This document shows, one piece after another, positions 6,911-54,984 of a DNA stretch of 64,000 nt. Numbering within the stretch: the stretch's first letter is position 1; every line of letters starts with the position of its first letter. A program made the translations under genes and the position numbers. The notes under the pieces were generated by a model. The model saw only the letters and a list, made by a program, of their open reading frames with translations. It had not been told where the DNA came from and ran no database searches. Origin of the DNA: Deltaproteobacteria bacterium (GTDB lineage: Bacteria; Bdellovibrionota_B; Oligoflexia; Oligoflexales; Bog-1112); contig JACPKR010000041.1 of assembly GCA_016186945.1 (NCBI GenBank), positions 1 to 64,000 of the forward strand, written 5' to 3'.

Positions 6911-6925
6911 GTCAGGGAGCTTACG

Positions 6926-7939: not shown

Positions 7940-7970
7940 TGTGAAACCTTGGCTCCGGAATGAGGTCTTT

Positions 7971-9026: not shown

Positions 9027-9049
9027 GTGGTGAACAGCGTCCTATCTGT

Positions 9050-9097
9050 TGGGGGAGCGACGGTTCCCTCGCCCCCCCAAACCCCCCTCTCCCAAGG
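9050..9097 (+). repeat. Family A repeat fragment (A3) between convergent genes
   Basis: GGGGGAGCGACGGTTCCCTCG, then C7, AAACCCCCCTCTCCC: the central/right section of family A. It fills most of the 84-bp gap between the agmatinase-family gene and rel. Confidence 0.75.
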
Positions 9098-9110
9098 TTT
9101 CTTTAGATCA

Positions 9111-18441: not shown

Positions 18442-18789
18442 TTACCAGGTTAATTGATCGGTTTGTCGGAGGATTTCTGTAATTGTGGAGAAAATAATTT
18501 GGGGAGGGCAATTTTCCCTTAGAAAACAACAGCGTCCAGCGAGGACATGTTCCTCAGCGTGGGGGAAAAAATTGAAGTCACCGACAACGAGGGTGCGACG
18601 GCCGTCTATCAGGATACCGAGATGCTCTCGCCATCCATTCCAGGGCAGCAGAATCATGGGGGTTCTGCTTTGCAGCGCGTTTCCGTTAAGTTCGTTGGGA
18701 GCGAGACAGAGCGGTTTCAGTTTCCCATTAAGAACTTGCTTAATGGAATTATGCTTTTGGGGTTCCCCGATGATATAGATGTCCCGCAT
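18442..18789 (-). CDS. Small protein of unknown function in the adenylation/reductase/kinase run
   Basis: 115 residues from the ATG at 18789 (MRDIYIIG); an ATG at 18810 would add seven residues. It overlaps the 3' end of the reductase gene by 41 bp and ends 31 bp before the kinase, so it fits in the same transcript. Predicted mixed alpha/beta with two strands LGILIDGRRTLVVGDFNF near the middle and two Cys (RCCF). No family recognised. The opposite strand also has open frames here, so the call leans on its operon position. Confidence 0.5.
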   Translation of the reverse strand: MRDIYIIGEPQKHNSIKQVLNGKLKPLCLAPNELNGNALQSRTPMILLPWNGWREHLGILIDGRRTLVVGDFNFFPHAEEHVLAGRCCFLRENCPPQIIFSTITEILRQTDQLTW

Positions 18790-20236: not shown

Positions 20237-22362
20237 CCTCCCATGAGTTTGTCCAGATCGTTCGGTAAACGTGACGGGTTTAAAATTTTGGCCGTTTTAA
20301 GTCCGCACGGGCATGGTTCTTCCGAGTACGTCGCTCTGTCTCCCACGATGTAGCGTAGGAGCTGTGTTCCTTCCGCAGGGCCGATGCCATCTTCCAGACT
20401 TGCTCCGATTCTCGATGCGACCACCAGTCCCGATTCCCCCGAGCGGACGTGTTTACCAGAGTCATCCACGACTTCCAAAAAGATATGACCCTGGCAAAGG
20501 TGGAATCCAGCTGAATCGTGTGAACACGAAATTCCTGTTGGTAAGGCTTCCGTCGAACCGTAGAGGTTGGCAATATATTCGACGCCTAATTCACGAAGTT
20601 CCTCAAGCAGGTCCTTGCCCAATGCTGTACTGGAGACAATCAGAGTTTTGATTCCGATACGGGGGATAAAGTCAGGGTCAACTGCCAGGAAGTCTTCCAG
20701 GCTTCCCCCCTTCCCGCTGCCACTGCGCGGAGTCAGGACCATAGCCTGAATCTTGAGCCGCTCCATTTCCGCGATGGATTCCTCTTCGTTGCTATTGAAA
20801 TGCCGAGGAATGGGCGTAGCGCCCAGTAAGCGCATGATATCGTCGAAAGCGGGGCCGGAAACGTGACCTTGGTTGTAGCCGTTCCACACTCGCAAACCCT
20901 TCCAGCTTTTTCGCAGGGGCTTCATGTATCGGACCGCAGTTTCCATGGCAGCCGTCCAGTCTGGCTTTGTCCAAAACATCGGTGTGGGCACACCCGTTGT
21001 TCCCCCCGACCCACGGACAAGATGGATCGGAGCGTCTTTCAGGCCGATCAAATCCTGCGGGTCGGTGAGGCGCAGTATCTGCTTGCCAATGGGAGGAAGG
21101 CTTTCAATGTCCTCCCTCGTGAGCCTGTCTCGTTTAAGAAGGCCCTCTGGTAGCCGTTTTTGCCAGAAATCACAATGTTCCGAGGCAAACAAGATCTGCT
21201 GTCGGTAAAGCTCGCAAAGCCATTTTTCCAAAATGTTGCGATCGTTTGTGTCCCAGTCGCGGGATAGGAAAGAAGTAGGCATCGAGTCTCCGGTTTTTTC
21301 AGTCGTTGGCATGATGAACGGTTTCTTTTGGATCCCTGCACTCCGTGAAACCAATACCGTTGAAGGAGGAACAGGGGAATTTACAAGGAAGACCTCATGA
21401 CCTATCGTTGCAAGAAGCTCCTCATACTCTCGAATGGAATAGACTCCGCCAGCCTCATTCTGAAGAAGCATGCTTAGACCAAAGATCAAACTGTAAGGGG
21501 GATAATTCCTTTTTTCATTCAAGCAATATTCATTGATCACAATGAGACTGGACGGATGGATATGCTTGCTTACTTTTTTAAGAAGGGTTTTAATTGTCTC
21601 CTTTGACTCTTGGTGGAGAAGATGGGACAGGATGACCACGTCAAAGGCTTCCTGCGGCCAGGGAGTGGTGAAAATATTCCCGTCAACCGTGTGGAAACGC
21701 TTTTCAACGTAGGCTTTCTGATTGAAAGTCCGAGCTTCCTCATTCACATGAGGCCAGTCTACCTGTACAACGCGAGCTTGCGGAAAGTATGCGAGAAAGG
21801 CTTCTCCAAAGACGCCAGAGCCGCCTCCCAAGTCAATCACGTTCCTGATCTCATTTTTGCCCCATGCGAGTGAACGGGCTACACTTTGAGCAACCTGCAT
21901 ACTAAACGGGCGAATCGCGCGAACCAATTGCTTCCAGAACTCTGCTCCCGGTTCATCCGTGCGTTGACGGGCACGCGGGTGACCATCTTTTACTGTGTCA
22001 GTCAAAGTTAACCAGGTCTCTCTTCCCAGACGCCAGAGGATTTTAATGGCCTCTCCGACGTAAAGCGGGGAGCTGGGGACAAGGTACGTTTGAGCTGTTG
22101 GGGAATTTGAATATTTTGATCCGTCAAAACTCACAAGATCGAGGGCGACCAGACCTCCTAGGATGCTTTCCATACTGCGTCGAGCAAGAGACAAGAGCTG
22201 CGAAATTTTTTCGAGATTCGCGTCCGGATGAGCAGCCAGTGTAGCAAAAATGCCCAAATCAATTGCTGACATGATGATGTGACTTTTTCGGTATCCTGCA
22301 GCGTTGAGAAGCAGGCTTGTAAGGTCGGCTTCCGCCTCTTGATTTTTTGAAGACGTGCTCAA
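20218..22362 (-). CDS. Fusion of an O-methyltransferase and a phenylacetate-CoA ligase/LuxE-like adenylation domain
   Basis: 714 residues. Residues 1-345 are a plant-type O-methyltransferase: winged-helix dimerisation domain (about 15-100), SAM motif VIDLGGGSG (175-183), and acidic VQVDWP strand end. After a linker (about 346-370), residues 371-714 form an adenylate-forming domain of the PaaK/acyl-protein-synthetase type: GSGGTTGVP (451-459), YGSTE (601-605), GDRA (675-678) and a CPCG cysteine pair (684-687). It would activate a carboxylic acid and methylate an oxygen (or other) group of the same pathway. First gene of the minus-strand run; the promoter should lie in 22363-22493. I know of no named family with this domain pair. 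Confidence 0.85.
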   Translation of the reverse strand: MSTSSKNQEAEADLTSLLLNAAGYRKSHIIMSAIDLGIFATLAAHPDANLEKISQLLSLARRSMESILGGLVALDLVSFDGSKYSNSPTAQTYLVPSSPLYVGEAIKILWRLGRETWLTLTDTVKDGHPRARQRTDEPGAEFWKQLVRAIRPFSMQVAQSVARSLAWGKNEIRNVIDLGGGSGVFGEAFLAYFPQARVVQVDWPHVNEEARTFNQKAYVEKRFHTVDGNIFTTPWPQEAFDVVILSHLLHQESKETIKTLLKKVSKHIHPSSLIVINEYCLNEKRNYPPYSLIFGLSMLLQNEAGGVYSIREYEELLATIGHEVFLVNSPVPPSTVLVSRSAGIQKKPFIMPTTEKTGDSMPTSFLSRDWDTNDRNILEKWLCELYRQQILFASEHCDFWQKRLPEGLLKRDRLTREDIESLPPIGKQILRLTDPQDLIGLKDAPIHLVRGSGGTTGVPTPMFWTKPDWTAAMETAVRYMKPLRKSWKGLRVWNGYNQGHVSGPAFDDIMRLLGATPIPRHFNSNEEESIAEMERLKIQAMVLTPRSGSGKGGSLEDFLAVDPDFIPRIGIKTLIVSSTALGKDLLEELRELGVEYIANLYGSTEALPTGISCSHDSAGFHLCQGHIFLEVVDDSGKHVRSGESGLVVASRIGASLEDGIGPAEGTQLLRYIVGDRATYSEEPCPCGLKTAKILNPSRLPNDLDKLMGGCERWD

Positions 22363-33090: not shown

Positions 33091-34032
33091 TTACACGGAT
33101 GTGAGGAAGAAATGAATTGATTTTGCAGCTTTACGGTAGTCACGGACTTTGTAGTTTACGTCGATAAGGGCGATGACTTCTGTCGCCCGCTCAGGGTCCG
33201 AGTTGCAAACAAGGGCGTGACTATTGTAGAGAATTGAGTAAAGGCCAAGGCCAGCTCCCTCCTTTTTACTGTCAATAAGATCCTTGGGTCTTGTATTAGG
33301 TAGAGCTTTTTTCAAGTATTTGAAGATAGTTTCTTTTCTCAGGCTTCCGAAAGGGTCTCTAACTCCAATAGCCAACACTGAGCCGTCGAACCCGTAGCTG
33401 AGTTGTGACCGCTGGTTTTGAGGCAGCTCGACTTTGGGGTCGACACTCCCATTCGAGAGCGGGGGTGCATCATAGAGAGCGTTCATCACAAGCTCTTCCG
33501 TAATACTGGCTGCTCGGTTTGGGAGCTGAGTCCCAACTTTCTTGGATTGTACAAAAGCAATCACCCCCTGAGTTAGTTCTGTGCGTACAGTATCTGCAAT
33601 TGGTTTTATGAAGATTTCGGTGGAAGGCAAAAGGTACTTTTCAATGCCGAAGAGGTCTTGTCGAATCATTTTCTGCAAGGATATACGCAGCTCGTTGTAA
33701 GTCCAGGGAGAAGGTGCGCGATTCGCTATGATGTGATCTACATATTTCTCCTCGTGCGACCCCAATGATTCAGAATAACGAGCCATAGGCAGATCTGTAA
33801 GTAAACACGACTTTCCGTTGGGATGGTATCTAAAAAACTCAGCAAACAATTGCAAATCTGGAGCATTAGACAGTAGGATCATCAAATCGTTTCTGTTCTT
33901 TATGACTTTGAGAGCAGACATTGTGTTGGACACAGACAGCACTTCCAGACCCGATGCACATATTTTCAAAAAAGAAAGGGGGGGTATTTTTTTATAACCT
34001 GCTAAATCTACGAATAGAATCGAGGGCTTCAT
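33091..34032 (-). CDS. Protein with receiver-like N-terminus and HATPase C-terminus
   Basis: 313 residues. The N-terminal ~120 residues alternate strands and helices like a receiver (SILFVDLAGYK.., LMILLSNAP, SCLLTD) but lack the acidic pocket and phosphoacceptor. Residues about 165-290 look like a GHKL ATPase of the RsbW/SpoIIAB sort: ITEELVMNALYDAP (N-box), AIGVRDPFGSL (G1) and EGAGLGLYSIL (G2). No His phosphotransfer helix is seen, so it may be an anti-sigma-type kinase or a signalling ATPase. It is divergent from the Glt-like operon across a family B repeat. Confidence 0.6.
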   Translation of the reverse strand: MKPSILFVDLAGYKKIPPLSFLKICASGLEVLSVSNTMSALKVIKNRNDLMILLSNAPDLQLFAEFFRYHPNGKSCLLTDLPMARYSESLGSHEEKYVDHIIANRAPSPWTYNELRISLQKMIRQDLFGIEKYLLPSTEIFIKPIADTVRTELTQGVIAFVQSKKVGTQLPNRAASITEELVMNALYDAPPLSNGSVDPKVELPQNQRSQLSYGFDGSVLAIGVRDPFGSLRKETIFKYLKKALPNTRPKDLIDSKKEGAGLGLYSILYNSHALVCNSDPERATEVIALIDVNYKVRDYRKAAKSIHFFLTSV

Positions 34033-34089
34033 CTTTTTCGGCCTCTCACGTGAGTTGACAGTGGAAAACGAACGTTTCTAAAATATTAT

Positions 34090-34369: not shown

Positions 34370-35029
34370 ATGTTTGACACGATTGCTCGCTTGTTTTATC
34401 AGGGTGGCCCGTTTGTGATGAGTGGAATTCTCTTCGTTCTGGTCATTTCCGTTGTTTTGATCGGGGAACGGGCTGTGCGCTACTGGTTTCAATATGACCT
34501 GGCGAATAGTTCCGGATTTATGGCTGCCGTCCAGAAAATGATTATGAACAATTCCATCGAGAATGCCATAAGGCTTTGCAAGAATGCTCGCCCGAAGCTT
34601 GTCCCCGTAGTCCTTACGGAAGGACTCATGCGTGCGAACGACTCCGAGGAAGAGATTGAAAACGCGATGGAACACGCCACCCTTTCCGTTTTGCCGAAAG
34701 TGACAAGAGGGGTTCCCTTTCTGGGAACCACAGCTAACGTTGCAACCCTCCTGGGCCTTTTGGGGACAATCTTCGGCCTGATCAAAGCGTTCGGCGCAGC
34801 AGCGACCGCAACAGGCGTGCAAAAGCAGACCATACTTGCGGAAGGGATTGCAGAAGCCCTTACCGCAACGTCCTTTGGCTTATCGACAGCACTGCTCTGT
34901 CTTTTGGCCCACGGGTTTCTTATGATGAAGCAGGGGACCATCATCAACGACATCAACCAGAATGCTTCCCGTCTTATTGACTTGCTGATCACCCGCAAGA
35001 TCAAAATGAAGGGATCTCCTGTAAAATAG
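34370..35029 (+). CDS. MotA/TolQ/ExbB proton-channel subunit (AglR-like)
   Basis: 219 residues, three membrane helices (about 15-35, 118-140, 160-182), with the family core GTTANVATLLGLLGTIFGLIKAF and the TATSFGLSTALLCLLAHGF helix. AAGGAGG precedes the ATG. First gene of the eight-gene operon. In Myxococcus, AglR with two TolR-like partners forms the motor that drives the Glt (gliding) or Nfs (spore coat) machine; the two ExbD-type genes directly downstream fit that three-part layout. Confidence 0.9.
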   Translation: MFDTIARLFYQGGPFVMSGILFVLVISVVLIGERAVRYWFQYDLANSSGFMAAVQKMIMNNSIENAIRLCKNARPKLVPVVLTEGLMRANDSEEEIENAMEHATLSVLPKVTRGVPFLGTTANVATLLGLLGTIFGLIKAFGAAATATGVQKQTILAEGIAEALTATSFGLSTALLCLLAHGFLMMKQGTIINDINQNASRLIDLLITRKIKMKGSPVK

Positions 35030-35036
35030 GTACACC

Positions 35037-35555
35037 ATGAGTCGACTTGGAAAAAAAAAAGTATTTGAAGCAGGCCAGTCGGTCGAACTCAACATCATGC
35101 CTTTTATTGATGTTTTCTCGCTGCTGTGTACCTTTCTCCTTTTTTCAGCAGTCTTTCTTTCGGTGGGTATTCACTTCGTTCAGATTCCCTTCATAAGCAA
35201 TGCCGCCCCTTCAAAGGAAGAAGTTGAGCGTCAACTGAATGTAAGTGTGGACGTGGGCAAGGACAATATTGAGCTGGTGACGTCATGGTCCGAGCAGCCT
35301 CTCGAAAAAAAAGTTTTACAATTCCCTCATGCGGAGGCAGGCATCGCACAACTCCATAAGTCACTCATAGACCTAAAACAGGCGCACCCGAAAGTGGATA
35401 AGGTTGACCTGTTTTTAGATGACGAGATCACTTATGACCAAATCATCGGCTTGTTAGATCAGATCAAATTGCGCTTCCCGGAAGACCCTCGCACGTCAGA
35501 TCTTGAAGGAGATGTCCTGTTTCCCAAAGTTGTTTTTGGTAGCGTTATGCTCTAG
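35037..35555 (+). CDS. TolR/ExbD-type motor subunit 1 (AglQ/AglS-like)
   Basis: 172 residues. One N-terminal membrane helix (about 21-43) with Asp25 in the MPFIDVF motif, the proton-carrying residue of this family; periplasmic domain about 60-172. It starts 7 bp after the proton-channel gene. The basic run KKKVF at the N-terminus fits an inside-facing end. Confidence 0.9.
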   Translation: MSRLGKKKVFEAGQSVELNIMPFIDVFSLLCTFLLFSAVFLSVGIHFVQIPFISNAAPSKEEVERQLNVSVDVGKDNIELVTSWSEQPLEKKVLQFPHAEAGIAQLHKSLIDLKQAHPKVDKVDLFLDDEITYDQIIGLLDQIKLRFPEDPRTSDLEGDVLFPKVVFGSVML

Positions 35556-35571
35556 CCAAAAAGGAGGAATT

Positions 35572-36051
35572 ATGGCCTCTGTAAGCAGTGAACAAGGGGA
35601 GTCGATTCCCCTAAACCTTATGCCTATGCTCGACATTTTCAGCATTCTGATTCTCTTCCTTCTGATGAGCTTTTCCACAGACCCGATCAGCCATGACCTG
35701 CATGCGGGGGTTGAGTTGCCAGAAACGGCGGTTCTTGACTCTTTGGACGAGACACCGACCCTTATCTTGTCGGAATCGGAAATCCTCGCTAACGATAAAA
35801 AAATCGTCACCCTGATCAATCGAGATGTCGAAGCTAGGTACAAAAGTCAGGGAGCCATCTTCCCCCTATTCAAGGAGCTTGAAAAAATGGCCGAGGCAAA
35901 CCGTCGTTTTTCCAAAGTAAAAACTACAACGGGGTCTCTTACCATGGAAGTCGACAAAGAGCACCGGTTTCGCTTGTTAAGAATGGTCATGCTGTCTGCA
36001 CAGCAAGCGGATTTTGTGAAATTTAAACTCATGGCTTCGAAGAATATTTGA
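35572..36051 (+). CDS. TolR/ExbD-type motor subunit 2 (AglS/AglQ-like)
   Basis: 159 residues from ATG 35572 with AAGGAGG 5 bases upstream; the longer open frame starts inside the previous gene and is not used. Membrane helix about 16-36 with Asp21 (PMLDIFS). Like its neighbour it keeps the proton-carrying Asp. Having two different TolR-like subunits next to one TolQ-like subunit is the Agl motor arrangement. Confidence 0.92.
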   Translation: MASVSSEQGESIPLNLMPMLDIFSILILFLLMSFSTDPISHDLHAGVELPETAVLDSLDETPTLILSESEILANDKKIVTLINRDVEARYKSQGAIFPLFKELEKMAEANRRFSKVKTTTGSLTMEVDKEHRFRLLRMVMLSAQQADFVKFKLMASKNI

Positions 36052-36054
36052 CCC

Positions 36055-36741
36055 ATGCTTAAAAAGATCCTCATTCTTTTGTGCCTAACTCCCACTGTTC
36101 TTCACGGTGCGGATGAGCTTTTTGAGGAATTCGAAATACGAGTCATCCGTCCTCGCTACTTCACAAAAAGACACCGTTTCGAGATCGGCGCACAGTTTGC
36201 AGCCATCACCAACCAGACATTCGTCTATACGTACCTGCTCGCTGCAAACGTCGGCTACCATTTCAGCGAACAATGGGGAGCTGAACTTGTCGGTGCTTAC
36301 GGCTTATCCTTGGAAAAGACCGAGAAGCAAATCCTCGACAAAGACTTCGACATCAACACGCAGGTCGCGACGACGGAACGTTATTACGGTGGCAACGTTC
36401 GGTGGACTCCTATGTACGGCAAATATCAGCTTCGGAATGGACGTCTGATCTACTTCGACACATTCCTGTCAGCGGGAGGGGGGCTGCTGGGGATCAGACA
36501 ACGTTACGACCATTGCGGGGAAGGAAGTACAAGGAGTCCTGGCGTTTTTGATTATCCCTTTTTTGAACTTGGCCTCGGTCAACGTTTCTTCGTGAGTCAA
36601 TCGGACAGTCTGCGCTGGGACCTGAAAGGACAGGTCTATACTGTCAACTCCTCAGATTCCGCATGTGTGGAAGGGACAGAGGGCGAGAACTTCTTCGCCC
36701 CGAACATCACGCTGCAACTTGGGTACGGGAGGTTTCTCTAG
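36055..36741 (+). CDS. Outer-membrane beta-barrel protein of the Glt/Nfs-like operon (GltA/GltB type)
   Basis: 228 residues. Signal peptide about 1-19 (ends VLHG-A). The mature part is a string of ~10-residue amphipathic strands (RFEIGAQFAAITNQ, YLLAANVGYHFSEQWGAELVGAYG, LIYFDTFLSAGGGLLGIRQ, FFELGLGQRFFVSQSDSLRWDLKGQVY) ending in ..LGYGRFL, as expected of a small barrel. GltA/GltB and NfsA/NfsB in Myxococcus are such barrels. It starts 3 bp after subunit 2. Confidence 0.8.
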   Translation: MLKKILILLCLTPTVLHGADELFEEFEIRVIRPRYFTKRHRFEIGAQFAAITNQTFVYTYLLAANVGYHFSEQWGAELVGAYGLSLEKTEKQILDKDFDINTQVATTERYYGGNVRWTPMYGKYQLRNGRLIYFDTFLSAGGGLLGIRQRYDHCGEGSTRSPGVFDYPFFELGLGQRFFVSQSDSLRWDLKGQVYTVNSSDSACVEGTEGENFFAPNITLQLGYGRFL

Positions 36742-38238
36742 GTGGGCGTTCGAACATACATGCTTAGCTCCCTACTCAGCTTGTCAGCTGGCTCAGCCTT
36801 TGCCGACTACACGTCTGGGCTGCGACTCTTTAACGCCAAGAATTACACATCATCTGCCCCTGAATTTTACAGCGCCTTTCAAAATGCGAAGGAGAAAAAA
36901 TCAAGACTCCAGGCGGCACTGGGACTAGCGACTAGTCTCCAACGTCTAGGGTTTTCCTACGCCGCGACAGAGTACTTTGCGATGCTTGTAGAGTCAGGGC
37001 ATGCTGCCCTATTTCGAGAAGGTCTGGAGGCTTATGCGGCCATAGACGAGCTGACCCCATTGAGTCGCGAGACGATTGCACGCCTTTTCAAGCAGGATGT
37101 CGAACTGAGTGGTGTAGGACCCGCTGCTCGGGGGTTTTTCTTCTATTATGCGGGGCGAGAATATTTTCAGAGAAAACTTTGGCGTCAAGCGGAGGAATTG
37201 TTCAAGCAGGTACCCCCGGTCAGTGCGCTCTTTCCCAAAGCGTTGTTTCACCTCGGCATCGTTAGCCATCTAAGCGGCAATGCTACAATGAGCGAGCGCT
37301 ATTTCGACAAAGCATTGGAAGTCGCCAGCACTCTTCGAAATTCGGACTGGTTTCGTGAACAGGTCTTTTTGAACCTAGCGCGTCTCCACTATGAAAAGCA
37401 AGACTTCGTGCGAGCTGTCGAATTCTACGCAAAAATCCCGAGAGACTCCGAGAATTGGCTTACGGCAGTCCTTGAATCCGCTTGGGCTTTCTTCCTCATG
37501 GAAAAGCCCAACAACACGCTGGGGAATATCCACACCCTTCACTCACCCTTCTTCGAAAAGAGGTTCTTTCCAGAAAGTTTCATCCTCCAGGCGACAAGCT
37601 TTCTCCGCCTCTGTCGCTTCGATCGTGTGAAAACATCTGTCGACGAGTTTGACAGACGCTATGGGCCTGTCTTCAATCAACTTAGGGAAGTCATCGGCAC
37701 AGCGGAAAAAAATCCGGAATTCATTTATGAAATTGTCCGCGACTACAAGATGCAAAAGCTAGAGCAATACCAAGAAATAGGGACGGTGCTTGACGCCCTG
37801 TCCCGCACCGATCTTTTCAAGCAGGGCCTTGCGACGATGGAAAAACTTGCGGATGAGGAAAAGCGTCTGGTCACAGCACCCAGCTCGTGGCCTCGTCCCT
37901 TTGCCGACAAACTTCGCTCCTTGCTTGAGCAAAAACAGTCACGACTTGTCCAAGACCTAGGACGTTCGTTGCAAGAACAGGGACAGTTTTACCTTCGTTA
38001 TCTGAACGAATTGGGAGCGCAAGCCAAGCTGATTACAGCCGAGCGGCTGTTGGGAAGGATCGAAGCCCTTCGTCAGGAGTTACAGATTCACACAACTCCG
38101 AAGAAGGAGAACTTTATCGGAGGGCTACAACCGTTGGTGTTAGGTCAAGATTTGGAATATTGGCCCTTTGAAGGGGAATACTGGGAAGATGAGCTGGGAG
38201 GCTATGTTTACAACATCGCAAGCAAGTGTAGGGGATAA
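36742..38238 (+). CDS. Exported TPR protein (GltE/NfsE-like)
   Basis: 498 residues from GTG 36742, directly after the barrel-gene stop, with GGGAGG upstream. Signal peptide about 1-22 (SAFA-D). Then repeated TPR-like helix pairs (about 30-290), for example SAPEFYSAFQNAKEKKSRLQAALGLATSL and LARLHYEKQDFVRAVEFYAKIPRD; the C-terminal part is coiled-coil-rich. No catalytic motif. GltE/NfsE are TPR proteins of the outer-membrane part of the machine; the assignment is by position, length and repeat type. Confidence 0.75.
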   Translation: MGVRTYMLSSLLSLSAGSAFADYTSGLRLFNAKNYTSSAPEFYSAFQNAKEKKSRLQAALGLATSLQRLGFSYAATEYFAMLVESGHAALFREGLEAYAAIDELTPLSRETIARLFKQDVELSGVGPAARGFFFYYAGREYFQRKLWRQAEELFKQVPPVSALFPKALFHLGIVSHLSGNATMSERYFDKALEVASTLRNSDWFREQVFLNLARLHYEKQDFVRAVEFYAKIPRDSENWLTAVLESAWAFFLMEKPNNTLGNIHTLHSPFFEKRFFPESFILQATSFLRLCRFDRVKTSVDEFDRRYGPVFNQLREVIGTAEKNPEFIYEIVRDYKMQKLEQYQEIGTVLDALSRTDLFKQGLATMEKLADEEKRLVTAPSSWPRPFADKLRSLLEQKQSRLVQDLGRSLQEQGQFYLRYLNELGAQAKLITAERLLGRIEALRQELQIHTTPKKENFIGGLQPLVLGQDLEYWPFEGEYWEDELGGYVYNIASKCRG

Positions 38239-38239
38239 G

Positions 38240-41200
38240 ATGCAAGCTTCGTCACGCCAGATTCTTCTTCTCCTTGCTTGCGGATCAGTGTGTGCCCTGA
38301 CCGCGTCAGCGCAGGAGCATCAACGCCCACCGCTAAGCATTGAGACACCCTCGAAAAAAGAGATTCTCCCAAGGAAAGAAGCTCCCCAGGACAGAAAGCA
38401 GCTATACCACAGGGAACTGCGCAAGGAACTTATAGAAAAAATCGATGAGACGATCGCCTATCTAAGCAAACTTGCTGGACAGTATCCCCGCAAGTCACCC
38501 CAACGCTTGAAGTTTCTGGATAAAATCCTAGGTTTGCACTTCGAGCAAGCCGTATTCATCGCCTCCGAAGAAAGCGAGCGCTACGATCGTGATTGGAACG
38601 TATGGAACGAGGGAGGACAAAAGGGCCGAGAGCCACAGGTCAACAATCGAGTTTCAAAGGCGCATTGGCAACGGGTGGAAACTCTCGCCAATGACGTGTT
38701 GAAGGAATATCCTCAAGCCCCCCAAGCGGACAAAATAAAATTCCACCAGGCCATCGCCCAGCAATACCTTGAAAAAAAGGATCTAGCAGCCCGCTCTCTT
38801 CAGGACTTAGTTAAGCAATATCCTCGCTCCAGGATGCTCGATGATGCGCATTTTGCTCTTGGCGAATATGAATTCGGACGTGCGCAATTCAATCGGTCGC
38901 TCTTTCATTTCGAAAAATCAATCGACAGAGACAACCCAGATCGCTTGGGATGGGCACTTTTCAAGATGGGATGGTGCTATTACAACTTGGGTAATTTTCA
39001 AGCTGCCCTGAAATTTTGGAAGCAAACGATTGCCGTCACTCAGAACTTTCAGAACGAGAAAAAAGCGTTGATCCTGAGGGAAGAAGTTCTTAGGGACATC
39101 GTTTTGGCTTTCGTTGAATTGGGACAAACTGACGAAGCAATAGCGTATTTTCGACAAAACAAGGGGGATGAGTTTATCGCAAGCTTTCTCGACTCACTCG
39201 CGAGAAACTACCAGAAGAAGGGAGCGAAACAGCGATCCCTCGATGTCTGGAATCGACTCCTTGCTACAACACCAGATTCACAGGAAGCCTTTGATGCCCA
39301 GGTGGAAGCGATCGCGCTTCTCAACGAACGGGGAGCCTATGACCAGGTTTGGACTAGGCTAGAAAGTATGCACGCTCGCATTTCACCGCAAGGTTCCTGG
39401 GCCACGGCAAATCCGAACCAAGTTAAAGATGCAACTCGGAAAACAGCGGAGTTAATGATTTACTATCCGAAAGTGATCCATAAGAAAGCTCAGAAAAGTG
39501 ACTCCTCCAAACTTTATTCTGAAGCGCGAAAAGGTTACGTCCAGTATTTGAAACACTATCCTGAGTCAAGGGACCAGACAGAAATTTGGGAATTGCTCGG
39601 GGATGTTACTTACGCGCAAAATCAATATGAACAGGCCGGAGACGTCTACCTCAACATCGTTAAGCTAGGCAAAGACAAGGCGGTGATCTATGACGAGAAA
39701 GGCAAGGTCACTCTCAATATTCATGCCCGGTCTGCGAAGAACATGCTCGATTCTTACAATAAAACAATGGCGGATGAACTTAAGGGACTCCTCCAGAAAC
39801 GCCCGAATTTTGAGAAGACCCCAGAAACCCTTAGCGAGCAAGCGCGGAAGTTCATCTCTTCCTGCCAATTGTTCACGGAGCAATACCCCCAAGAAAAGGC
39901 CCTGATAAGAAATTGTGACTCCTTTGTTGCTGAAATTTACTACCGAACCGGGCATCGTGAAGAAGCTAAAAAAGCACTGTTCACAGTCGCGTTCAAATAC
40001 GCAGACGCCAAAGAGGGGCCTGAAGCTGTGGAAAACCTCATTCCCCTCGTCAAAGATGATGAAGCGTTTCTTGTGTCCACCGTAAGAAGACTGCTCGCTC
40101 TCTCGGCTTACCAGAAGGGAAAAATAGGGGCCAAGCTGCAGGGGGTCATGCGCGGGCTAGAACTGAAGACCTTGACCCAGGAGACATCGGAAAAAAAACG
40201 AGCCAGTCTTTACGAAGAGCGGGCCTTGAAATTCCCCAACGATCCCGAGGCAGACAAATTTTGGTACAACGCTGCTCATGACTATATGAAGTCGGGGGAC
40301 ATGGCACGTGCGGTTAACGCTTTTCAAATGATAGCCACAAAATACCCACAGTCGAGAGCTTATGGCGAGTCGCTTCTCACCTTGGGAAAGCTCTACGATA
40401 AGCTGTTTGAGTACAAAAGAGCGTCTCAGTTCTACAGTCTCTATGCACAACGTAATCCTACAGAGAAGGAAGCGGCAGGGGCCGGGCAACGAGCCTGTGA
40501 CCTGGCTATTGTAGAAAACCTTGATCGTGCCTGGGACATCTGCCAAGCCTTCGCCACGCAACATAAAACGATCGGTGCCCGGCAAGTCGAGCGTATGATT
40601 CAAATCGCCTTCCTTAGAAAAGATGGGGATCGTGTCGCTCATCTGGTACAGAACGTCTATTTGCCGAATTTCCCCCTAGACCCTTCACAGAAAATCATGG
40701 CGTACCACAAATTGTTTCAAGTGGGATCAGACTCTCATCGGGTCGCGGCTCGGAAGATTATTTTGGAACAGGGAAAGAAGGGTGTTGCCGGAGAGGCTCT
40801 ACGTTACTACGCAGAAATGCTCTTTCTCGGGCATGATGGTCGTTTTGAGCAGCATATGGCCTTGAGTCTTCGAAGCGGGTCAGTGGAGAACTTGCAAGCT
40901 TCCATCCAAAAAATATCCGCGAGTCTGACTCAGCTTGAGAACGCCTACGGTCAAGTGACTGCAACGAAGGACTCCTACTGGGGAACAGTCGTATTCTACC
41001 GACTCGGTCTGGCTAACGAACAATTCGCTGAGCAACTTGCTAAGCCACCGGCAATCGCTGGTGTGAAGGAAGACGAGTTGAAGGCCCAGTTGAAAGCATC
41101 GGTTGACCAGGTGATGGAAAAAGCTAGGGAATTCTATAAGGTCGGACTGGATACCGCACGCAAGTTTTCCGTCTATAATGAATCTGTGCCAAAGCTTGTC

Positions 41201-41278
41201 GATGCCCAGCTACGGATGAGTCATCGTAAGGAGCGTTTCCTTGACTGGGTTCTGATACCGGACATGCTCGGGCAATAG
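38240..41278 (+). CDS. Large exported TPR protein (GltD/NfsD-like)
   Basis: 1012 residues from ATG 38240 (AGGGG upstream, 1 bp after the previous stop); an upstream in-frame start lies inside that gene and leaves the signal peptide internal. Signal peptide about 1-24 (ASA-Q). Nearly the whole protein is TPR-like: spaced ..A..G...Y..G....A...F......P repeats such as DDAHFALGEYEFGRAQFNRS and GWCYYNLGNFQAALKFW. GltD/NfsD of Myxococcus are similarly large periplasmic TPR proteins. A family B repeat begins 2 bp after the stop. Confidence 0.8.
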   Translation: MQASSRQILLLLACGSVCALTASAQEHQRPPLSIETPSKKEILPRKEAPQDRKQLYHRELRKELIEKIDETIAYLSKLAGQYPRKSPQRLKFLDKILGLHFEQAVFIASEESERYDRDWNVWNEGGQKGREPQVNNRVSKAHWQRVETLANDVLKEYPQAPQADKIKFHQAIAQQYLEKKDLAARSLQDLVKQYPRSRMLDDAHFALGEYEFGRAQFNRSLFHFEKSIDRDNPDRLGWALFKMGWCYYNLGNFQAALKFWKQTIAVTQNFQNEKKALILREEVLRDIVLAFVELGQTDEAIAYFRQNKGDEFIASFLDSLARNYQKKGAKQRSLDVWNRLLATTPDSQEAFDAQVEAIALLNERGAYDQVWTRLESMHARISPQGSWATANPNQVKDATRKTAELMIYYPKVIHKKAQKSDSSKLYSEARKGYVQYLKHYPESRDQTEIWELLGDVTYAQNQYEQAGDVYLNIVKLGKDKAVIYDEKGKVTLNIHARSAKNMLDSYNKTMADELKGLLQKRPNFEKTPETLSEQARKFISSCQLFTEQYPQEKALIRNCDSFVAEIYYRTGHREEAKKALFTVAFKYADAKEGPEAVENLIPLVKDDEAFLVSTVRRLLALSAYQKGKIGAKLQGVMRGLELKTLTQETSEKKRASLYEERALKFPNDPEADKFWYNAAHDYMKSGDMARAVNAFQMIATKYPQSRAYGESLLTLGKLYDKLFEYKRASQFYSLYAQRNPTEKEAAGAGQRACDLAIVENLDRAWDICQAFATQHKTIGARQVERMIQIAFLRKDGDRVAHLVQNVYLPNFPLDPSQKIMAYHKLFQVGSDSHRVAARKIILEQGKKGVAGEALRYYAEMLFLGHDGRFEQHMALSLRSGSVENLQASIQKISASLTQLENAYGQVTATKDSYWGTVVFYRLGLANEQFAEQLAKPPAIAGVKEDELKAQLKASVDQVMEKAREFYKVGLDTARKFSVYNESVPKLVDAQLRMSHRKERFLDWVLIPDMLGQ

Positions 41279-41279
41279 A

Positions 41280-41322
41280 TATAGTATTTGGGAAAAAGAA
41301 TTTGTGGAGAGGACCTTTTTTG
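41280..41322 (+). repeat. Family B repeat, left end only (B5)
   Basis: TATAGTATTTGGGAAAAAG.. AATTTGTGGAGAGGACC, then the sequence leaves the family and enters a 51-bp tandem repeat. No right end is found nearby. Confidence 0.85.
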
Positions 41323-41466
41323 CGCTGTCATCCCGCGGCTTGACCGCGGGATCCAAAGGAGCAGCCTTTTTTGCGCTGTCATCCCGCGGCTTGACCGCGG
41401 GATCCAAAGGAGCAGCCTTTTTTGCGCTGTCATCCCGCGGCTTGACCGCGGGATCCAAAGGAGCAG
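41314..41466 (+). repeat. Three identical 51-bp tandem repeats with a GC-rich hairpin
   Basis: Units 41314-41364, 41365-41415 and 41416-41466 are identical. Each holds GTCATCCCGCGGCTTGACC.. GCGGGATCC, the same hairpin nested in family B long forms, followed by AAAGGAG. As 51 is a multiple of 3, the frame stays open and would code three 17-residue repeats (CAVIPRLDRGIQRSS..). Confidence 0.95.
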
Positions 41467-41494
41467 CCTTCCTCGAACAAGTTGGATCCCGGCC

Positions 41495-42286
41495 GTGGTG
41501 AGAGTTTTACTGGTTCTGTTCTGCATTGTGACGGCATGTACTGCGCCCTCTCCCGAAGGTGAGGTGCAGGAGGCTGTCGAACGTTCCCCCAAGGAAGACG
41601 CGCCAGCTCGACAGGGAGAAGCTCAGATTTTCAGCGTATCGAACAATCCCTTGATCTCCCATCCGGTTGATCCGCGTAAGTTGATCCAGAAAAAACAGGC
41701 AGTCGCAATGCAGGGGACTGACAAAAACATTCCTGACGCGGCTAAACTCAGCCTTGCTATGGGCGCTTTTTATTCACAAAATTGGGGGGAATTGCTTCTG
41801 TTCTTGGATGATTTGACGGCCTCTCGCGATGTCAGAGTGCGATCGCAAGCTCACAATATTCAAGGTGTCCTCGCTCTCAGGGAAGGACGTCTGTCCGAAG
41901 CCGTAGTCTCCTTTCAAGAAGCTCTAAGGAGTGATAACTCCAACCAAGCAGCACTTCTGAACCTTGGGTTTTTAAACCTGCGTTTTGGGTACTTCGACAA
42001 AGCTCTGCCCCTTCTCTTGCAGGGGGGTGATGACTGGTTTGCAAAGAGTGGGCTGATTGTGATCAAACGATTGAGCGGTGATCTCAAGGGAGCGGACGAG
42101 CTATGTGACGAGGTGCTTGACAAACATGGTAAGCACAAGATGACGCTTTTCAACTGCGGACTCTTGGAATTTCAAAGCAAGGGTGATATCCGGCAAGCGC
42201 GGAGCCTGATTGAAAAGGCGATGGCCGTCCCTGGGGGCGAGCGTGAGTGGAACGCGGAAGCTGTACGGCTTCTACGATCTATGTGA
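41495..42286 (+). CDS. TPR lipoprotein (GltC/NfsC-like)
   Basis: 263 residues from GTG 41495 (GTG 41498 equally possible). The signal VVRVLLVLFCIVTAC gives a lipobox with Cys about 16. The frame stays open upstream through the 51-bp repeats but those codons would bury the signal. The body has at least three TPR units (about 90-260: AHNIQGVLALREGRLSEAVVSFQEALRSD, ALLNLGFLNLRFGYFDKALPLLLQ). No good ribosome site is near the GTG, so the repeats probably replaced the native start region. GltC/NfsC is the matching component in Myxococcus. Confidence 0.75.
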   Translation: MVRVLLVLFCIVTACTAPSPEGEVQEAVERSPKEDAPARQGEAQIFSVSNNPLISHPVDPRKLIQKKQAVAMQGTDKNIPDAAKLSLAMGAFYSQNWGELLLFLDDLTASRDVRVRSQAHNIQGVLALREGRLSEAVVSFQEALRSDNSNQAALLNLGFLNLRFGYFDKALPLLLQGGDDWFAKSGLIVIKRLSGDLKGADELCDEVLDKHGKHKMTLFNCGLLEFQSKGDIRQARSLIEKAMAVPGGEREWNAEAVRLLRSM

Positions 42287-42303
42287 CAACAAGGAGAGGT
42301 CTC

Positions 42304-44175
42304 TTGGAAATCTTTTTTAACATGCCCGATACCGGTGACCAACACATAGAACTAAGTGGTCAGTCGATGAAAATCGGGAGCCTCCTATCTAACGAAATCG
42401 TCGTTGAATCCGAGGGAGTCGATCCGATACATGCTCTTCTTGAAAAACAAGAGGGAGCATGGCTCCTCACAAACCTTTCTGATGCTGGTGTGCTGGTTAA
42501 CGGTAAAGCTGTGTCGATCGAGGCGACACTGCGGGAAGGCGATACGCTCACCATAGGTCGTGTCGTGCTCAAGTTGCAAAAGGCTGTTCCCTTGCCTCCT
42601 CCCCTTCCCCGCATGGATAAGGCTTCCCAGCCTCTTGAAAAGGAAACGCCTGCCGAACGTGGGGAACGCAGAAGCTTAGGGTCTCTTTTTGCCCCGCGAA
42701 AAACGTTACCAAGTGGGGACATGCTGGAAGTCGTTGCGTATTGGGAAGGTCATGTTCTTGATGTCGAGCACTTTCATCCGACCTTGAAAGGCTTCGACAA
42801 GGTAAGCATTGGAGATCCGACTAAGACCCACTTTCTTGCCGCGGGGGACGAGGATATTGCCCACCATGTTCTCGCGGAAGTAGATGACGGCAGCTACACG
42901 CTCCATTTGTTGGACGGAATGACTGCCAGAGTTCGCAGTGCCGGAGAGGTGAAGGAGCTAGGACCAGGAACTCACGAATTGGGACGACGGGATCTTACCC
43001 ACGTGCGTTTTGGCCCGATCCACTACTTCTTCCTTTTTATGAGGTTGCCAGAACTCATTCTGCCTCCCCAGGGGTGGAAAGACCCACTGTTTGCGGGGAT
43101 GATGGCTGTCGGCCTCTTGCTATGGGCTTTAGTCACAGGTAGTTTTTTGGTGACGGACCCTAAGCTTCTCGAAGAACGTGAGCCGGACCTATGGTCGATT
43201 GTTCAGTTGCCTGACAGACTTCCTGAGAAGAAGCGGCCTCAAGCCAAGCCACCTGTCGAAGTTGCAGAGCTAAAAACTCCTCCCCCTCCTCGGGAAACAC
43301 CTCCTCCTCCAAAACCACAGCCTGTCAAAGCTGTGACCCCTGAGGAGCAGGAGAAGCCAAAACCTAAACCCCAAGCGGCACCTCCTTCACCTCCTCCTCG
43401 TGGTTCGGAAACGCTGACGAAAGCACGTACGCAAGAACCCACACGGAAAGCTTCCGAGAAACCAGGGCAGCCGAAACCCCAGCAGTTCGGAAACGATAAA
43501 CCAGGGGGACAAAGAAAAGGTAACGATAGCTCGAATGTTATGGGTGTGGAGGGAGTCAATAACAAGAAATCGTCAGGCATCAATTTAAACCAACTCGGTT
43601 TAGGTGTCGGCAAAGTGTCCTCGCAGTCGGGAACGGGTGCCATATACACAAAGTTCAAGGATTCCTCAGGAGGAGCGGGAGGAGGAACAGGGTCGGGAGG
43701 AGCGAAAGGATTCGGGCTTGGCGGCCTGGGTACAGGAAAGTCTTTGGGGATCGCCGGTGCGGAACAAGCTGTAGGAAGCTTCGGAGGGGGCGGCTTGCTG
43801 AAAGATTCCGAGGTGGGAGGAGGATTTGCCAGAGAAGGAGTCGACGTAAATGTGCGGGGTACAGATCCTCTGATCTCAGGAGGACTTACCGACGATCAGG
43901 TAAAAGCGGTGATCAATGCAAATCTGAATCAGATACGTCACTGCTATCAACAACTCCTTCAAAAGGACCCCGAGGCGCTTGGCCGCGTTAGGATCAAATT
44001 TATCATAGGGCTGACGGGAAGGGTTCGGACCTCCGACGTCGCTGATTCGACCTTCTCCGATCTCAACATTCAAAACTGTGTAAGTACAACAATCAAGCGG
44101 TGGCAATTCCCCACACCTCGAGGAGACGCCGACGTTATCGTTACCTACCCCTTTATTTTTCAACCCGTGACTTAA
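42304..44175 (+). CDS. FHA - membrane helix - TonB-like C-terminal protein (GltG/NfsG/AgmX type)
   Basis: 623 residues from TTG 42304, which has AAGGAG 7 bases upstream; the next ATG is 42322. FHA domain about 1-95 (KIGSLLSNEI, HALLEK, LVNGKAV, LREGDTLTIG), a second beta domain about 125-250 (VSIGDPTKTHFLA.., HELGRR), one membrane helix about 260-282, a Pro/Lys/Glu-rich stretch about 300-400, a Gly-rich stretch about 440-520, and a TonB-type C-terminal domain about 530-623 (VINANLNQIRHCYQQLL, VSTTIKRWQFP, VTYPFIF). It would span from the cytoplasm, where FHA reads phospho-Thr, to the outer-membrane parts. Last gene of the operon. Confidence 0.88.
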   Translation: MEIFFNMPDTGDQHIELSGQSMKIGSLLSNEIVVESEGVDPIHALLEKQEGAWLLTNLSDAGVLVNGKAVSIEATLREGDTLTIGRVVLKLQKAVPLPPPLPRMDKASQPLEKETPAERGERRSLGSLFAPRKTLPSGDMLEVVAYWEGHVLDVEHFHPTLKGFDKVSIGDPTKTHFLAAGDEDIAHHVLAEVDDGSYTLHLLDGMTARVRSAGEVKELGPGTHELGRRDLTHVRFGPIHYFFLFMRLPELILPPQGWKDPLFAGMMAVGLLLWALVTGSFLVTDPKLLEEREPDLWSIVQLPDRLPEKKRPQAKPPVEVAELKTPPPPRETPPPPKPQPVKAVTPEEQEKPKPKPQAAPPSPPPRGSETLTKARTQEPTRKASEKPGQPKPQQFGNDKPGGQRKGNDSSNVMGVEGVNNKKSSGINLNQLGLGVGKVSSQSGTGAIYTKFKDSSGGAGGGTGSGGAKGFGLGGLGTGKSLGIAGAEQAVGSFGGGGLLKDSEVGGGFAREGVDVNVRGTDPLISGGLTDDQVKAVINANLNQIRHCYQQLLQKDPEALGRVRIKFIIGLTGRVRTSDVADSTFSDLNIQNCVSTTIKRWQFPTPRGDADVIVTYPFIFQPVT

Positions 44176-44741: not shown

Positions 44742-46910
44742 TTAAAAAAGAGGGACTCCGTTGTGGAGGCCATCCCAGACGGGGGCGTTCGCAGATCCTA
44801 GGGGGACGACAGGGAACGTTTTCAGAAGGTCCTTCCCAATTTCCTGTTCAAGCGTTTCGTTAGAAACACTTAGACAAATCAGGTTGGGAAATTTAGTTAA
44901 GTCACTTAGCAATTTGTTCTCGTCCCTGTAGTAAAACACAGGGAGCACGAAAGGATGAGGGGATAGAAGTTCCCACACCTTTCTGGTTTCCGTAATCTCG
45001 ATAATAGGGAGAAAACAGTCATCGTTGGAGTCACGTGGTACGACGAACGATGTTCCCAAGTTGCGAAAACGTACAGCCTCCAGGTCAACAGCGATCCGCT
45101 CGAAAGTGGAGAGGGGGGCATTCCAGAACCGTCTGCACTCATCTCTTAGTACCTGCAGGAAATCAAGGAGACCTTTACCTGACGCAAAACAAAAGAGGGC
45201 ACGGGAAGAAAAACAACCGCGCTGTCCTAAGCTGAGCATATCCTTGGCGAGAAGGTCTGCGTCAGATGGCGAGCAGGAAGTCAAAAGACTAGCTGTAATT
45301 CCGGTGCCAAATCCCTTGATGGGTATCTGACTTTTCTTTTCCAAATCTTGGATCGTCTGGTTATCCCCAAACACCAAGATGTGAGAAATCTTCTCAGGGA
45401 AGGGGCCTTCTGGAACACGTACAGAGGAAGGTAAAATAGAGATGGGGCTTAGTTTTCCAAGCCCTTGCAGAAAAAGGTTAAGGCAAGAATCTGGACGTTC
45501 AAAATTCCTCGGCAGACGTACACTAAGCTCTAGTCCTGCCATGGAACCTATGACAACTGGATAGATGCTTGCAAGACTATGATTGTTGGGAGCGATAATA
45601 AGCCAAGAATCTCCGGCGTTGGCGCTTGAGTTCGTGCTTGCTTGTTTCCAAGCTTCGTCATTTTGTGGAATAGACAGACTCAGATCTTTGAGGGCAGAGC
45701 GTGCAGCGGATGTAGATTTGAATTCATCTTCAAGACTTTTCAGTGTGGAGGCATCATTCAGAAACTTACTTAGAAATTCATTCATAAGTTTAGGGTTCAT
45801 TTTGAGAGTAAGAGATGGGGAAGACGCAGGTGCAAGAGGGCGGGGAGGGAATAGAGTTTTCTTTTCTCGGTGGCCTTCTTCCGCATCGAGCGAGCAACCC
45901 TTCAACGGTGCCTGCGGGACTCTTCCCATGTAGGTGAACGTGCTATCAGCTTTCATGTCGACGATATCTTGAGTACGGATGGGCCATGGGAAATCGATCC
46001 TTAGGGGGTCGTAGGTGACCAGTGCACCTTCACCTTTTCCACTTGCAGTTTGAGGCCCCTGATGTACAAGGCGATTCACCCATGCTGGGAAGCGAAAGGT
46101 GCGTGGTCGATCGGGGGAAAAGGAAAAATCATAGGCCTGACACGCGAACTCACACATCCCATATTCGCTGACAATTTTCTCTGTCGGAAGGAAAAAGAGG
46201 TCTGAGATCAGTTTGAAAAGAGCATCGCGAGTGAGTTCGCGACTTTTCCCTTTATACCCTCCGGTTTCAAAAACAACGGATCCTTCGGGCAGTTTTCTCC
46301 GCACCCCCCTGTCGAAAACATTTATAAAATCAAAGGCCGTTCCAAAAACCCATAGCGCCTGATCTACCTTCGATGATTCCAGGAACTCGGAAAGTTTTTC
46401 CGGTCTTACAAAGTCCACATGCCAAAAATCACCAATCCATGAGATCATTTGGGACAGGCTGCTGTCTGGTCGGTCTGAGATATGGGGTACAAGGCTGATG
46501 CCCGGTATGGCTGTACTATGCCTTTGGTAGAATCGCTTCAGGACATCGTTGAAAACTTTGAGGCTTTGCCCCATATAGAGCAGCAGGCCATCTGTGCTAA
46601 AAAGTGATTGAGCAGCGGTGGCACTGGTGGTCCCGCTCGATTTAAAAACTTTCGCAGGTTTCTTGTTTGAATTTTGCAAGAAGAGTTGATGAATTTGACG
46701 TTCTCTAAAATATTCGATAGGCAAATAAGGAATTCCTTGTTTACCCAGCGTCGGTAGTTCGAGGCCCTTCGCTTGTTTGACGCGCGCGACAAGGTCAAAA
46801 TCAGAATCGAAGCTGTCGGGGAGCACCTTCATCAAGTCCCAAAGTTCCTGCCCTTGAAGTGTGCTAAACCTGAGATTCTGGAAAAAGCTCTTTAAAGTCT
46901 TTTCCGACAT
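44742..46910 (-). CDS. LuxE-LuxC single-chain fusion (acyl-protein synthetase + acyl reductase)
   Basis: 722 residues. Residues 1-345 match the LuxE acyl-protein synthetase family: FKSSGTTSATAAQS (89-102), ETGGYKGKSRELTRD (215-229), EYGMCEFACQAYD (249-261), and Cys339 in LKGCSLDAEE, the position of the acyl-carrying Cys. Residues about 375-722 match LuxC-type acyl reductases: WLIIAPNNHSLASIYPVV (436-453), Cys566 in LGQRGCFSSRALF, and a late VWDGL motif. LuxE activates a fatty acid as acyl-AMP, and LuxC reduces the acyl group to an aldehyde with NADPH; here both are on one chain, so the acyl could pass internally. No luxAB is present. Starts 9 bp after a 63-residue gene. Confidence 0.87.
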   Translation of the reverse strand: MSEKTLKSFFQNLRFSTLQGQELWDLMKVLPDSFDSDFDLVARVKQAKGLELPTLGKQGIPYLPIEYFRERQIHQLFLQNSNKKPAKVFKSSGTTSATAAQSLFSTDGLLLYMGQSLKVFNDVLKRFYQRHSTAIPGISLVPHISDRPDSSLSQMISWIGDFWHVDFVRPEKLSEFLESSKVDQALWVFGTAFDFINVFDRGVRRKLPEGSVVFETGGYKGKSRELTRDALFKLISDLFFLPTEKIVSEYGMCEFACQAYDFSFSPDRPRTFRFPAWVNRLVHQGPQTASGKGEGALVTYDPLRIDFPWPIRTQDIVDMKADSTFTYMGRVPQAPLKGCSLDAEEGHREKKTLFPPRPLAPASSPSLTLKMNPKLMNEFLSKFLNDASTLKSLEDEFKSTSAARSALKDLSLSIPQNDEAWKQASTNSSANAGDSWLIIAPNNHSLASIYPVVIGSMAGLELSVRLPRNFERPDSCLNLFLQGLGKLSPISILPSSVRVPEGPFPEKISHILVFGDNQTIQDLEKKSQIPIKGFGTGITASLLTSCSPSDADLLAKDMLSLGQRGCFSSRALFCFASGKGLLDFLQVLRDECRRFWNAPLSTFERIAVDLEAVRFRNLGTSFVVPRDSNDDCFLPIIEITETRKVWELLSPHPFVLPVFYYRDENKLLSDLTKFPNLICLSVSNETLEQEIGKDLLKTFPVVPLGSANAPVWDGLHNGVPLF

Positions 46911-53550: not shown

Positions 53551-54984
53551 TTACGCAGATTGGGGAAGAGTTTTGTCGCTATAATCATATTTTTCAAACA
53601 AGCGATCGATTTCTTCTTTCTTTGCATGAGGGATCAGTATGTCCTTGAAAATATCAAACGCTGACTTTGCAATGATTTCGATATCTTCATTTTGTTTTAA
53701 AGTGGCAATGTATTCGAGGGCATTTTTTGAAAATTCCCAGGCTACAAAAACACCAATCCTCTTCTTTTCCGATGTTATCGCTGAATGAAATTTTTGTATG
53801 TCAGGTCGTCCGACAGGTGTTGAATGGTTTTTCACTTGAATTGGATTGCGATTTCCATCCCAACCATCGATCCCTCGATCACCTGTCTTTTTGTCATTAA
53901 CTTTCCAGCCCATATATTCACAAACGATTCTTGCAAAATCGTGCCCATCAATTTCCTTCAACTCCTTCTCAGTTTTGGGAACATTTTTGATCTCGAAACT
54001 AACTTTCGAAGATTTGCTGTTGAGCCTTTGTGCCGACACTTTGATAGCTACGGGAGATACGTCCCCTATGATAAATCTTCGATCTGTCATCGAGCAAACT
54101 TTTGCCGTGGTTCCGCCTCCGGAGAAGCAATCCAAAACGAGATCACCGGGATTTGATGAACACTTTATTAGTCTTTGAAGTAAGGCTTCTGGTTTTTGAG
54201 TTGGGTACCCCAAACGTTCAGTGGCTTGTCCTTGGATTGCCAAGATATCGTCCCATACTGTATCAACCGGCCTTCCCTTGTTTTCATCTAAGTACCGTTT
54301 CAAGCGTGGAACCCCATTTCCTTTCTGGTAAATAAGCCCTTGTCGATCCGCGTCGTTCATTTTTTCTTTTGTCCAACGCCATACCTTTAGATGTCCTCTG
54401 AACTCATAAGTCAAATTTGGCCTATTAGGGTTTGGATTTGCAAGGTTGTCTAGCTGATATCGTCGTCCCGTCCCTTCTTCGACATGCTTATAGAACTTTC
54501 GAATATACTCAGGGTCCTGACTGCTGAACGGCCGATTCCAAGTAAATTTTTCAGATTTTGTGTAATAGAGAATTGTATCGTGATTATTGGGTAATCTGGT
54601 TGAAGCAAGTCCTTTGGCTCCCTGTCTTTTCCAAATAATCTCAGACCTGAAATTTTTTCCTCCAAATGTATCGTCAAGTAAGCACCTGAGGCGATGTGAG
54701 GCGTGCCAGTCACAATGAAGAAATAGTGTTCCCGTATTTTTTATTTTCTTATGGATCAATTCGATTCTTGGCCTCATCCATTCGATATAGTGTGAAATTC
54801 CGCCAGAAAATCTATCCCCGAATGATCTTAGTTCATACCCGTTTCCCCAAATAATTTCATAGTCTCGATTGCTAAAGAAGGGGGGGTCAATATAGCAAAG
54901 GTCAACGGATTCATCAGGAATCCAATTGAGCCAGTCAATATTGTCACCGCAAACAATGGTGTTTTTATTTGGATCAATTTTCAC
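53551..54984 (-). CDS. DNA methyltransferase fused to an Mrr-like nuclease domain
   Basis: 477 residues. N-terminal DNA amino-methyltransferase of the beta order: motif IV DPPF (33-36) before the target region (about 110-255), then TQKP (262-265) and motif I DCFSGGGTT (285-293). Residues about 345-477 look like a PD-(D/E)XK restriction fold: Asp373 (DRGIDGWD), then Gln383-x-Lys385 (IQVKNH), then VFVAWEFSKNA. One chain thus holds modification and cutting activities, a layout suggestive of a single-protein restriction system. The next gene downstream is the cyclase-like one. Confidence 0.8.
   Translation of the reverse strand: MKIDPNKNTIVCGDNIDWLNWIPDESVDLCYIDPPFFSNRDYEIIWGNGYELRSFGDRFSGGISHYIEWMRPRIELIHKKIKNTGTLFLHCDWHASHRLRCLLDDTFGGKNFRSEIIWKRQGAKGLASTRLPNNHDTILYYTKSEKFTWNRPFSSQDPEYIRKFYKHVEEGTGRRYQLDNLANPNPNRPNLTYEFRGHLKVWRWTKEKMNDADRQGLIYQKGNGVPRLKRYLDENKGRPVDTVWDDILAIQGQATERLGYPTQKPEALLQRLIKCSSNPGDLVLDCFSGGGTTAKVCSMTDRRFIIGDVSPVAIKVSAQRLNSKSSKVSFEIKNVPKTEKELKEIDGHDFARIVCEYMGWKVNDKKTGDRGIDGWDGNRNPIQVKNHSTPVGRPDIQKFHSAITSEKKRIGVFVAWEFSKNALEYIATLKQNEDIEIIAKSAFDIFKDILIPHAKKEEIDRLFEKYDYSDKTLPQSA

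Follow-up and report, generated by a model that had tools for sequence, protein, structure and literature searches.

The locus and its eight genes

The window examined here is a stretch of 64,000 nucleotides (positions 1 to 64,000 of contig JACPKR010000041.1, C24 in our numbering, GenBank assembly GCA_016186945.1) from an Oligoflexales bacterium of the Bdellovibrionota, with an assembly size of 2.66 Mb and 91% completeness. Between 34370 and 44175 the list of open reading frames (ORFs) of the window has eight members, all on the + strand, that apparently form one transcription unit in the order TolQ-TolR-TolR-barrel-GltC-GltD-GltE-GltG. Their sequences make it quite probable that together they encode an Agl-Glt/Nfs core complex, a machine driven by proton-motive force and spanning both membranes. 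All eight have family matches when domains are assigned with Pfam and NCBIfam profiles and the family cut-offs, and 3 of the 8 are TPR proteins. A preliminary description of this DNA had proposed an eight-gene envelope-machine operon here, and the ORFs and domain calls agree with it. The spacers are, in gene order, 7, 16, 3, 0, 1, 219, and 35 bp, so that the "few bases" described earlier does not hold for the gap between the GltD and GltE genes. Three starts are corrected: 35572 for the second TolR-like gene, 41498 for the lipoprotein, and 42322 for the FHA protein.

The motor subunits

The first gene (34370..35029, +) encodes a TolQ/ExbB/MotA proton-channel subunit of 219 aa that matches PF01618 with E = 9e-23, and which profile scores and a tree indicate to be of the AglR type. 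With a profile built from the class members, 2 Myxococcus motors having two TolR genes downstream reach 180 and 158 bits, versus 60 bits for Escherichia coli TolQ and 54 bits for ExbB. Those two motors are our Agl-type reference, taken as a pair, with the name AglRQS not assigned to either one. In the motor tree the window subunit falls within the Agl-type clade (support 95/98), and the TolQ/ExbB clade is separate (99/95). Because the motor lies outside that clade and the profiles favor the Agl-type motors, classical TolQR/ExbBD identity, a grouping that would have undone the earlier Agl-Glt reading, is rejected. The same genome does encode a distinct TolQ-type subunit (own_C23).

The next 2 genes are TolR/ExbD-like, one in the AglQ position (35037..35555, +; 172 aa; PF02472, E = 1.7e-9) and one in the AglS position (35572..36051, +; 159 aa; PF02472, E = 8.7e-9). 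With the class profile of the first, the top match in each of the two Agl-type Myxococcus motors is the first TolR (59.7 and 43.7 bits), and with that of the second it is the second TolR (70.8 and 65.8 bits). The transmembrane (TM) aspartate is retained in both, as D25 in NIMPFID of the first, where the alignment has it conserved among relatives, and as D21 in NLMPMLD of the second. Since both proteins keep this residue, the motor should conduct protons.

A further set of motor-like genes was encountered in another locus, L150 (G000:C68:8000-26000), where at 4662-11096 on the - strand a second Agl-clade TolQ-like gene is followed by 2 TolR-like genes whose TM helices, judged by eye, do not have the usual aspartate. 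That locus also has a one-TM protein and an RNase J relative, an FHA-HD-GYP protein precedes, and a TolQ-like gene related to the one in L150 occurs in genome G015. Going by sequence, the L150 genes are possibly a non-conducting Agl-type motor.

The barrel and the TPR proteins

The fourth gene (36055..36741, +) encodes a GltA/GltB-like outer-membrane beta-barrel, scoring 93.5 bits against TIGR04565 OMP_myx_plus, where the cut-off is 60. The AlphaFold2 model has 8 strands, with a predicted local distance difference test (pLDDT) score of 91, and resembles OmpA and OmpW. The class profile finds the barrels beside Myxococcus gltC with 67 and 45 bits. A barrel of this kind suggests, as far as the model goes, a role in anchoring and not in letting a polymer through.

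Gene 5 (36742..38238, +; 498 aa, GTG start) encodes a periplasmic TPR protein that had been called GltE-like. We reject that name in favor of GltC, since the protein scores 194.6 bits against NF033756 gliding_GltC, with E = 3.3e-57. Reciprocally, the GltC class profile recognizes NfsC/GltC of Myxococcus with 218 and 211 bits. AlphaFold2 gives an all-helical TPR protein (pLDDT 86), and the tail at residues of about 452-487 is predicted to be disordered, yet it carries the most conserved motif of the family, the invariant EYWxDxLG. The strongest conservation being inside predicted disorder, sequence and model together suggest that the tail is a partner-binding motif.

Gene 6 (38240..41278, +) encodes a protein of 1012 aa matching the TPR families of Pfam. 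TPR repeats alone would make a weak assignment to GltD/NfsD; the gene position agrees with it, and the NfsD-like gene L048:10792-14460, from a Myxococcus-type genome, is matched by the class profile with 369 bits. The lipoprotein encoded by gene 7 (41498..42286, +; 262 aa) has TPR matches and a lipobox VTAC (relatives, too, have a lipobox-like cysteine near the N-terminus), and it is this one that is GltE/NfsE-like: its class profile scores 60 bits on the gene in the NfsE position of L048, which is the equivalent gene position. The remaining names given earlier, for the motor genes, the barrel, GltD, and the FHA-TonB protein, stand. A start of gene 7 at 41288 is rejected, as the upstream part is translated repeats and the lipoprotein signal starts at 41498.

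The repeats in question are 3 tandem 51-bp palindromic (REP-like) copies at about 41320..41470 (+), inside the 219-bp gap. The repeat core is CCCGCGGCTTGACCGCGGGATCC, a translation of which would read VIPRLDRGIQ, and single copies are found elsewhere in the window at 24313(-), 34161(-), and 47248(+).

The last gene (42322..44175, +) encodes a GltG-like transducer with a cytoplasmic N-terminal FHA domain (E = 1.8e-10), one TM helix, and a Pro-rich linker. Its C-terminus scores 97.9 bits against the AgmX/PglI domain NF033768, exceeding the cut-off of 40, and matches the TonB-like C-terminal domain with E = 2e-4. The class profile scores 231 bits on the gene in the NfsG position of L048. Thus the TPR and FHA-TonB proteins have matches to GltC, GltD, GltE, and GltG rather than to unrelated families, and each gene of the operon has a partner in Myxococcus-type Agl/Glt/Nfs loci, which together with the motor tree upholds the Agl-Glt/Nfs relationship that had been proposed.

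Distribution of the operon

GltC is present in 48 of 58 Oligoflexia genomes, covering 27 of 30 genera. It was not found in any of the 8 genomes of genus g25, nor in 2 genomes of the window's own family. The complete eight-gene order occurs in 28 of the 38 named loci of the class, and these are all 28 of the loci not cut by contig ends; the other 10 are cut at contig ends, and have partial but matching order. Identical genes in identical order in 28/28 uncut loci exclude chance. They are also 28/28 single clusters of motor plus GltC/D/E/G outside the Myxococcales and Bdellovibrionales. The closest named loci are from metagenome-assembled genomes (MAGs) of Oligoflexales, for example L050 and L051 (the latter is identical with genome G001, which belongs to the same genus); loci of Silvanigrellales are more distant. 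Two Oligoflexus MAGs (L063 and L080) carry the operon.

The GltC tree unites the motor-linked Oligoflexia type in a single clade (100/100) that includes neither the second loci nor GltC and NfsC of Myxococcus. These second loci encode another, divergent GltC that many members of the order possess, while the window genome has one GltC; in 3 fetched loci (L036, L041, and L043) the second GltC sits in a barrel-C-D-E set and belongs to a GltC clade of its own. The barrel-C-D-E-G order is also found in other phyla, mostly without the motor in the fetched stretch. In L112 (UBP6) an Agl-type motor is immediately downstream of the core.

The flanking region

A gene at 33091..34032 (-) is transcribed divergently from the operon, and its product has GHKL-ATPase-like motifs (EELxMNA, DPFG, and GAGLGL) and no match to a Pfam family. 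It is retained beside the operon in 24 relatives, in most of which icd comes next, and because the synteny is shared with icd, linkage to the operon alone proves little about it. The product may be a regulator, outside the machine itself. The divergent gap contains a promoter-like site, TTGACA-18 nt-TAAAAT at 34055-34084, which is a consensus match only.

Three other places in the window are recorded here. At 18749-22362 (-), an aldehyde dehydrogenase/LuxC-like gene adjoins one in which an O-methyltransferase and an AMP-binding part are fused. A 722-aa protein at 44742-46910 (-) has no Pfam match and, by eye, a LuxE-like start. At 53551-54984 (-) there is a fusion of an N6/N4 DNA methylase with an Mrr-type restriction endonuclease domain.

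What the machine may do

We identify the operon with the Agl-Glt core because of the family matches, the one-to-one profile matches to Myxococcus, the motor clade, the fixed order, the TM aspartates, and the barrel. Also counted in favor is binding reported in Myxococcus xanthus: that of AglR to GltG (Luciano et al. 2011, PMC3169522) and to NfsG (PMC3858216), and the mutual binding among GltA, GltB, and GltC (PMC4488436). The TolQ-like and 2 TolR-like subunits would form an Agl-type inner-membrane motor, in which proton flow past the 2 TolR aspartates would move the GltG-like protein. The cytoplasmic FHA domain of that protein probably serves phospho-threonine control, and its Pro-rich periplasmic arm, with the AgmX/PglI domain at its tip, would act on a TPR scaffold of GltD, the GltE lipoprotein, and GltC. 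With the scaffold tied to the small barrel, force would reach the outer membrane and displace a surface-linked cargo. What the sequences themselves show is the identity, order, and conservation of the genes and the clade of the motor; how force is passed on, which subunits touch, and that a cargo moves at the surface are presumed by analogy with Myxococcus.

Several observations weigh against calling the operon an Agl-Glt core. Three of the proteins fall under the cut-offs of their NCBIfam gliding models, the GltC-like protein with its 194.6 bits versus an equivalog cut-off of 450, the GltG-like protein with 140.5 bits versus 650 for NF033760 gliding_GltG, and the GltE-like lipoprotein with a weak 16.8 bits versus 225 for NF033758 gliding_GltE. 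The TM helix of the GltG-like protein has no conserved His of the TonB/TolA type, and neither does the Myxococcus paralogue, so that force transfer may differ from that of Ton/Tol. There is a single barrel, versus 2 in the Myxococcus loci. None of GltF/NfsF, GltH, GltI, GltJ, and GltK is in the operon, which for GltF, H, I, and K is a statement on the operon and not on the whole genome; the AgmX/PglI domain is found above cut-off once in the genome, with no separate GltJ seen. Finally, we found no functional data for any member of the Oligoflexia. The type of machine is well supported, whereas its cargo, be it in gliding, polymer transport, or another use of this force path, is not.

One possible role is that of a true gliding machine, the 8 proteins and MglA forming moving focal complexes as in Myxococcus and perhaps Bdellovibrio, which glides (PMC13104615, PMC3169522), its gliding motor being still unidentified (PMC13104615). 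Besides the Agl-type motor with GltC/D/E/G, the genome has an MglA relative, found by direct query with 35% identity and E = 6e-35; the MglA used as query has 97% identity with the one in G085. A Pfam Roc search for MglA had no match, and was discarded as a test since the direct query succeeded. MglA is found in most class genomes tested, but these include G043 and G044, which are both without GltC, and the 91%-complete genome has no Robl_LC7 match for MglB. With GltF/H/I/J/K outside the operon, and Oligoflexus tunisiensis recorded as non-motile (PMC5154148) though Oligoflexus MAGs carry the operon, the gliding role suggested earlier is not borne out. Luciano et al. thought the core by itself unlikely to drive motility (PMC3169522). 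We regard gliding as possible but doubtful. The same core could instead work as an Nfs-like machine acting on a secreted polysaccharide or coat, which it would drag along or compact, as Agl-Nfs moves the Exo polymer on spores (PMC3858216). The entire core (barrel, C, D, E, and G) matches the nfs-type locus L048, and on NF033756 the 195 bits of the window GltC are near the 211 of an NfsC-type protein and far from the 1060 of true GltC. Yet no polysaccharide export genes are conserved beside the operon among the compared flanking genes, Oligoflexus is recorded as non-sporulating (PMC5154148), and a single 8-strand barrel like that of OmpA/OmpW is not large enough to export a polymer. A polymer role is rated unlikely. 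Both estimates are shares within the favored explanation, because gliding and polymer transport use the same core complex.

Outside that explanation is a divergent Tol-Pal or TonB-like system for outer-membrane constriction or uptake. The MotA/ExbB and ExbD folds and the TonB-like domain would fit it, but the motor's place in the tree, the separate TolQ-type subunit in the genome, the specific homology of GltC and GltD, and an operon with no Pal, TolB, or TonB-dependent receptor make it highly improbable. Returning to the Agl-Glt core, we put forward tentatively that the Oligoflexia version is a stable, vertically inherited machine whose role is neither gliding nor spore coat, and thus a living pre-gliding form behind the myxobacterial machines.

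Comparison with known systems

What job the Agl-Glt core had before gliding was asked in 2011 (PMC3169522), and a compact one-operon version, in a related class with some cultured members, is a tractable place to study the core alone. The Tol-Pal and TonB-ExbBD systems have motors of the superfamily found in the operon and likewise a transducer with a TonB-like domain, whereas the operon has a motor of a different clade, 2 TolR-like genes, a TPR scaffold, no TolB or Pal, and a transducer without the conserved TM His. The M. xanthus Agl-Glt gliding machine shares a homologous motor, GltC/D/E/G, and a GltA/B-type barrel, but its genes are dispersed over 3 clusters rather than one, and it is larger than the operon by GltF, H, I, J, and K, by having 2 barrels, and by CglC and control through MglA/MglB. 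The Nfs spore-coat machine is alike in the barrel-C-D-E-G order of L048; in M. xanthus it relies on AglRQS encoded at another place and includes more genes and 2 barrels, whereas the Oligoflexia motor is inside the operon.

Closest is the Agl-Glt core complex, the Group B genes of Luciano et al. In that paper (PMC3169522), AglRQS and GltC, GltD, GltE, and GltG are reported to lie together in one cluster in the genomes of Gammaproteobacteria, Geobacter, and Fibrobacter; this was named an ancestral core complex, of unknown function, and gliding was proposed to have arisen once GltF, H, I, J, K, A, and B had been recruited to it. The preliminary description was correct in contrasting the joined motor and envelope genes with Myxococcus, but the clustering and its ancestral reading are not new. 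Overall, its observation is confirmed and its reading partly supported. The published clusters carry one extra gene without homologues in Myxococcales or Bdellovibrionales, which may or may not correspond to the TIGR04565 barrel. We found no publication on a fixed eight-gene Oligoflexia form, which is not proof of absence. The find extends the known distribution rather than establishing a new kind: the operon is the published core complex plus one built-in GltA/B-type barrel, in the Oligoflexia, a host class not named in the passages of Luciano et al. consulted, and what we add is an eight-gene form that is fixed across that class and has a GltC clade of its own.

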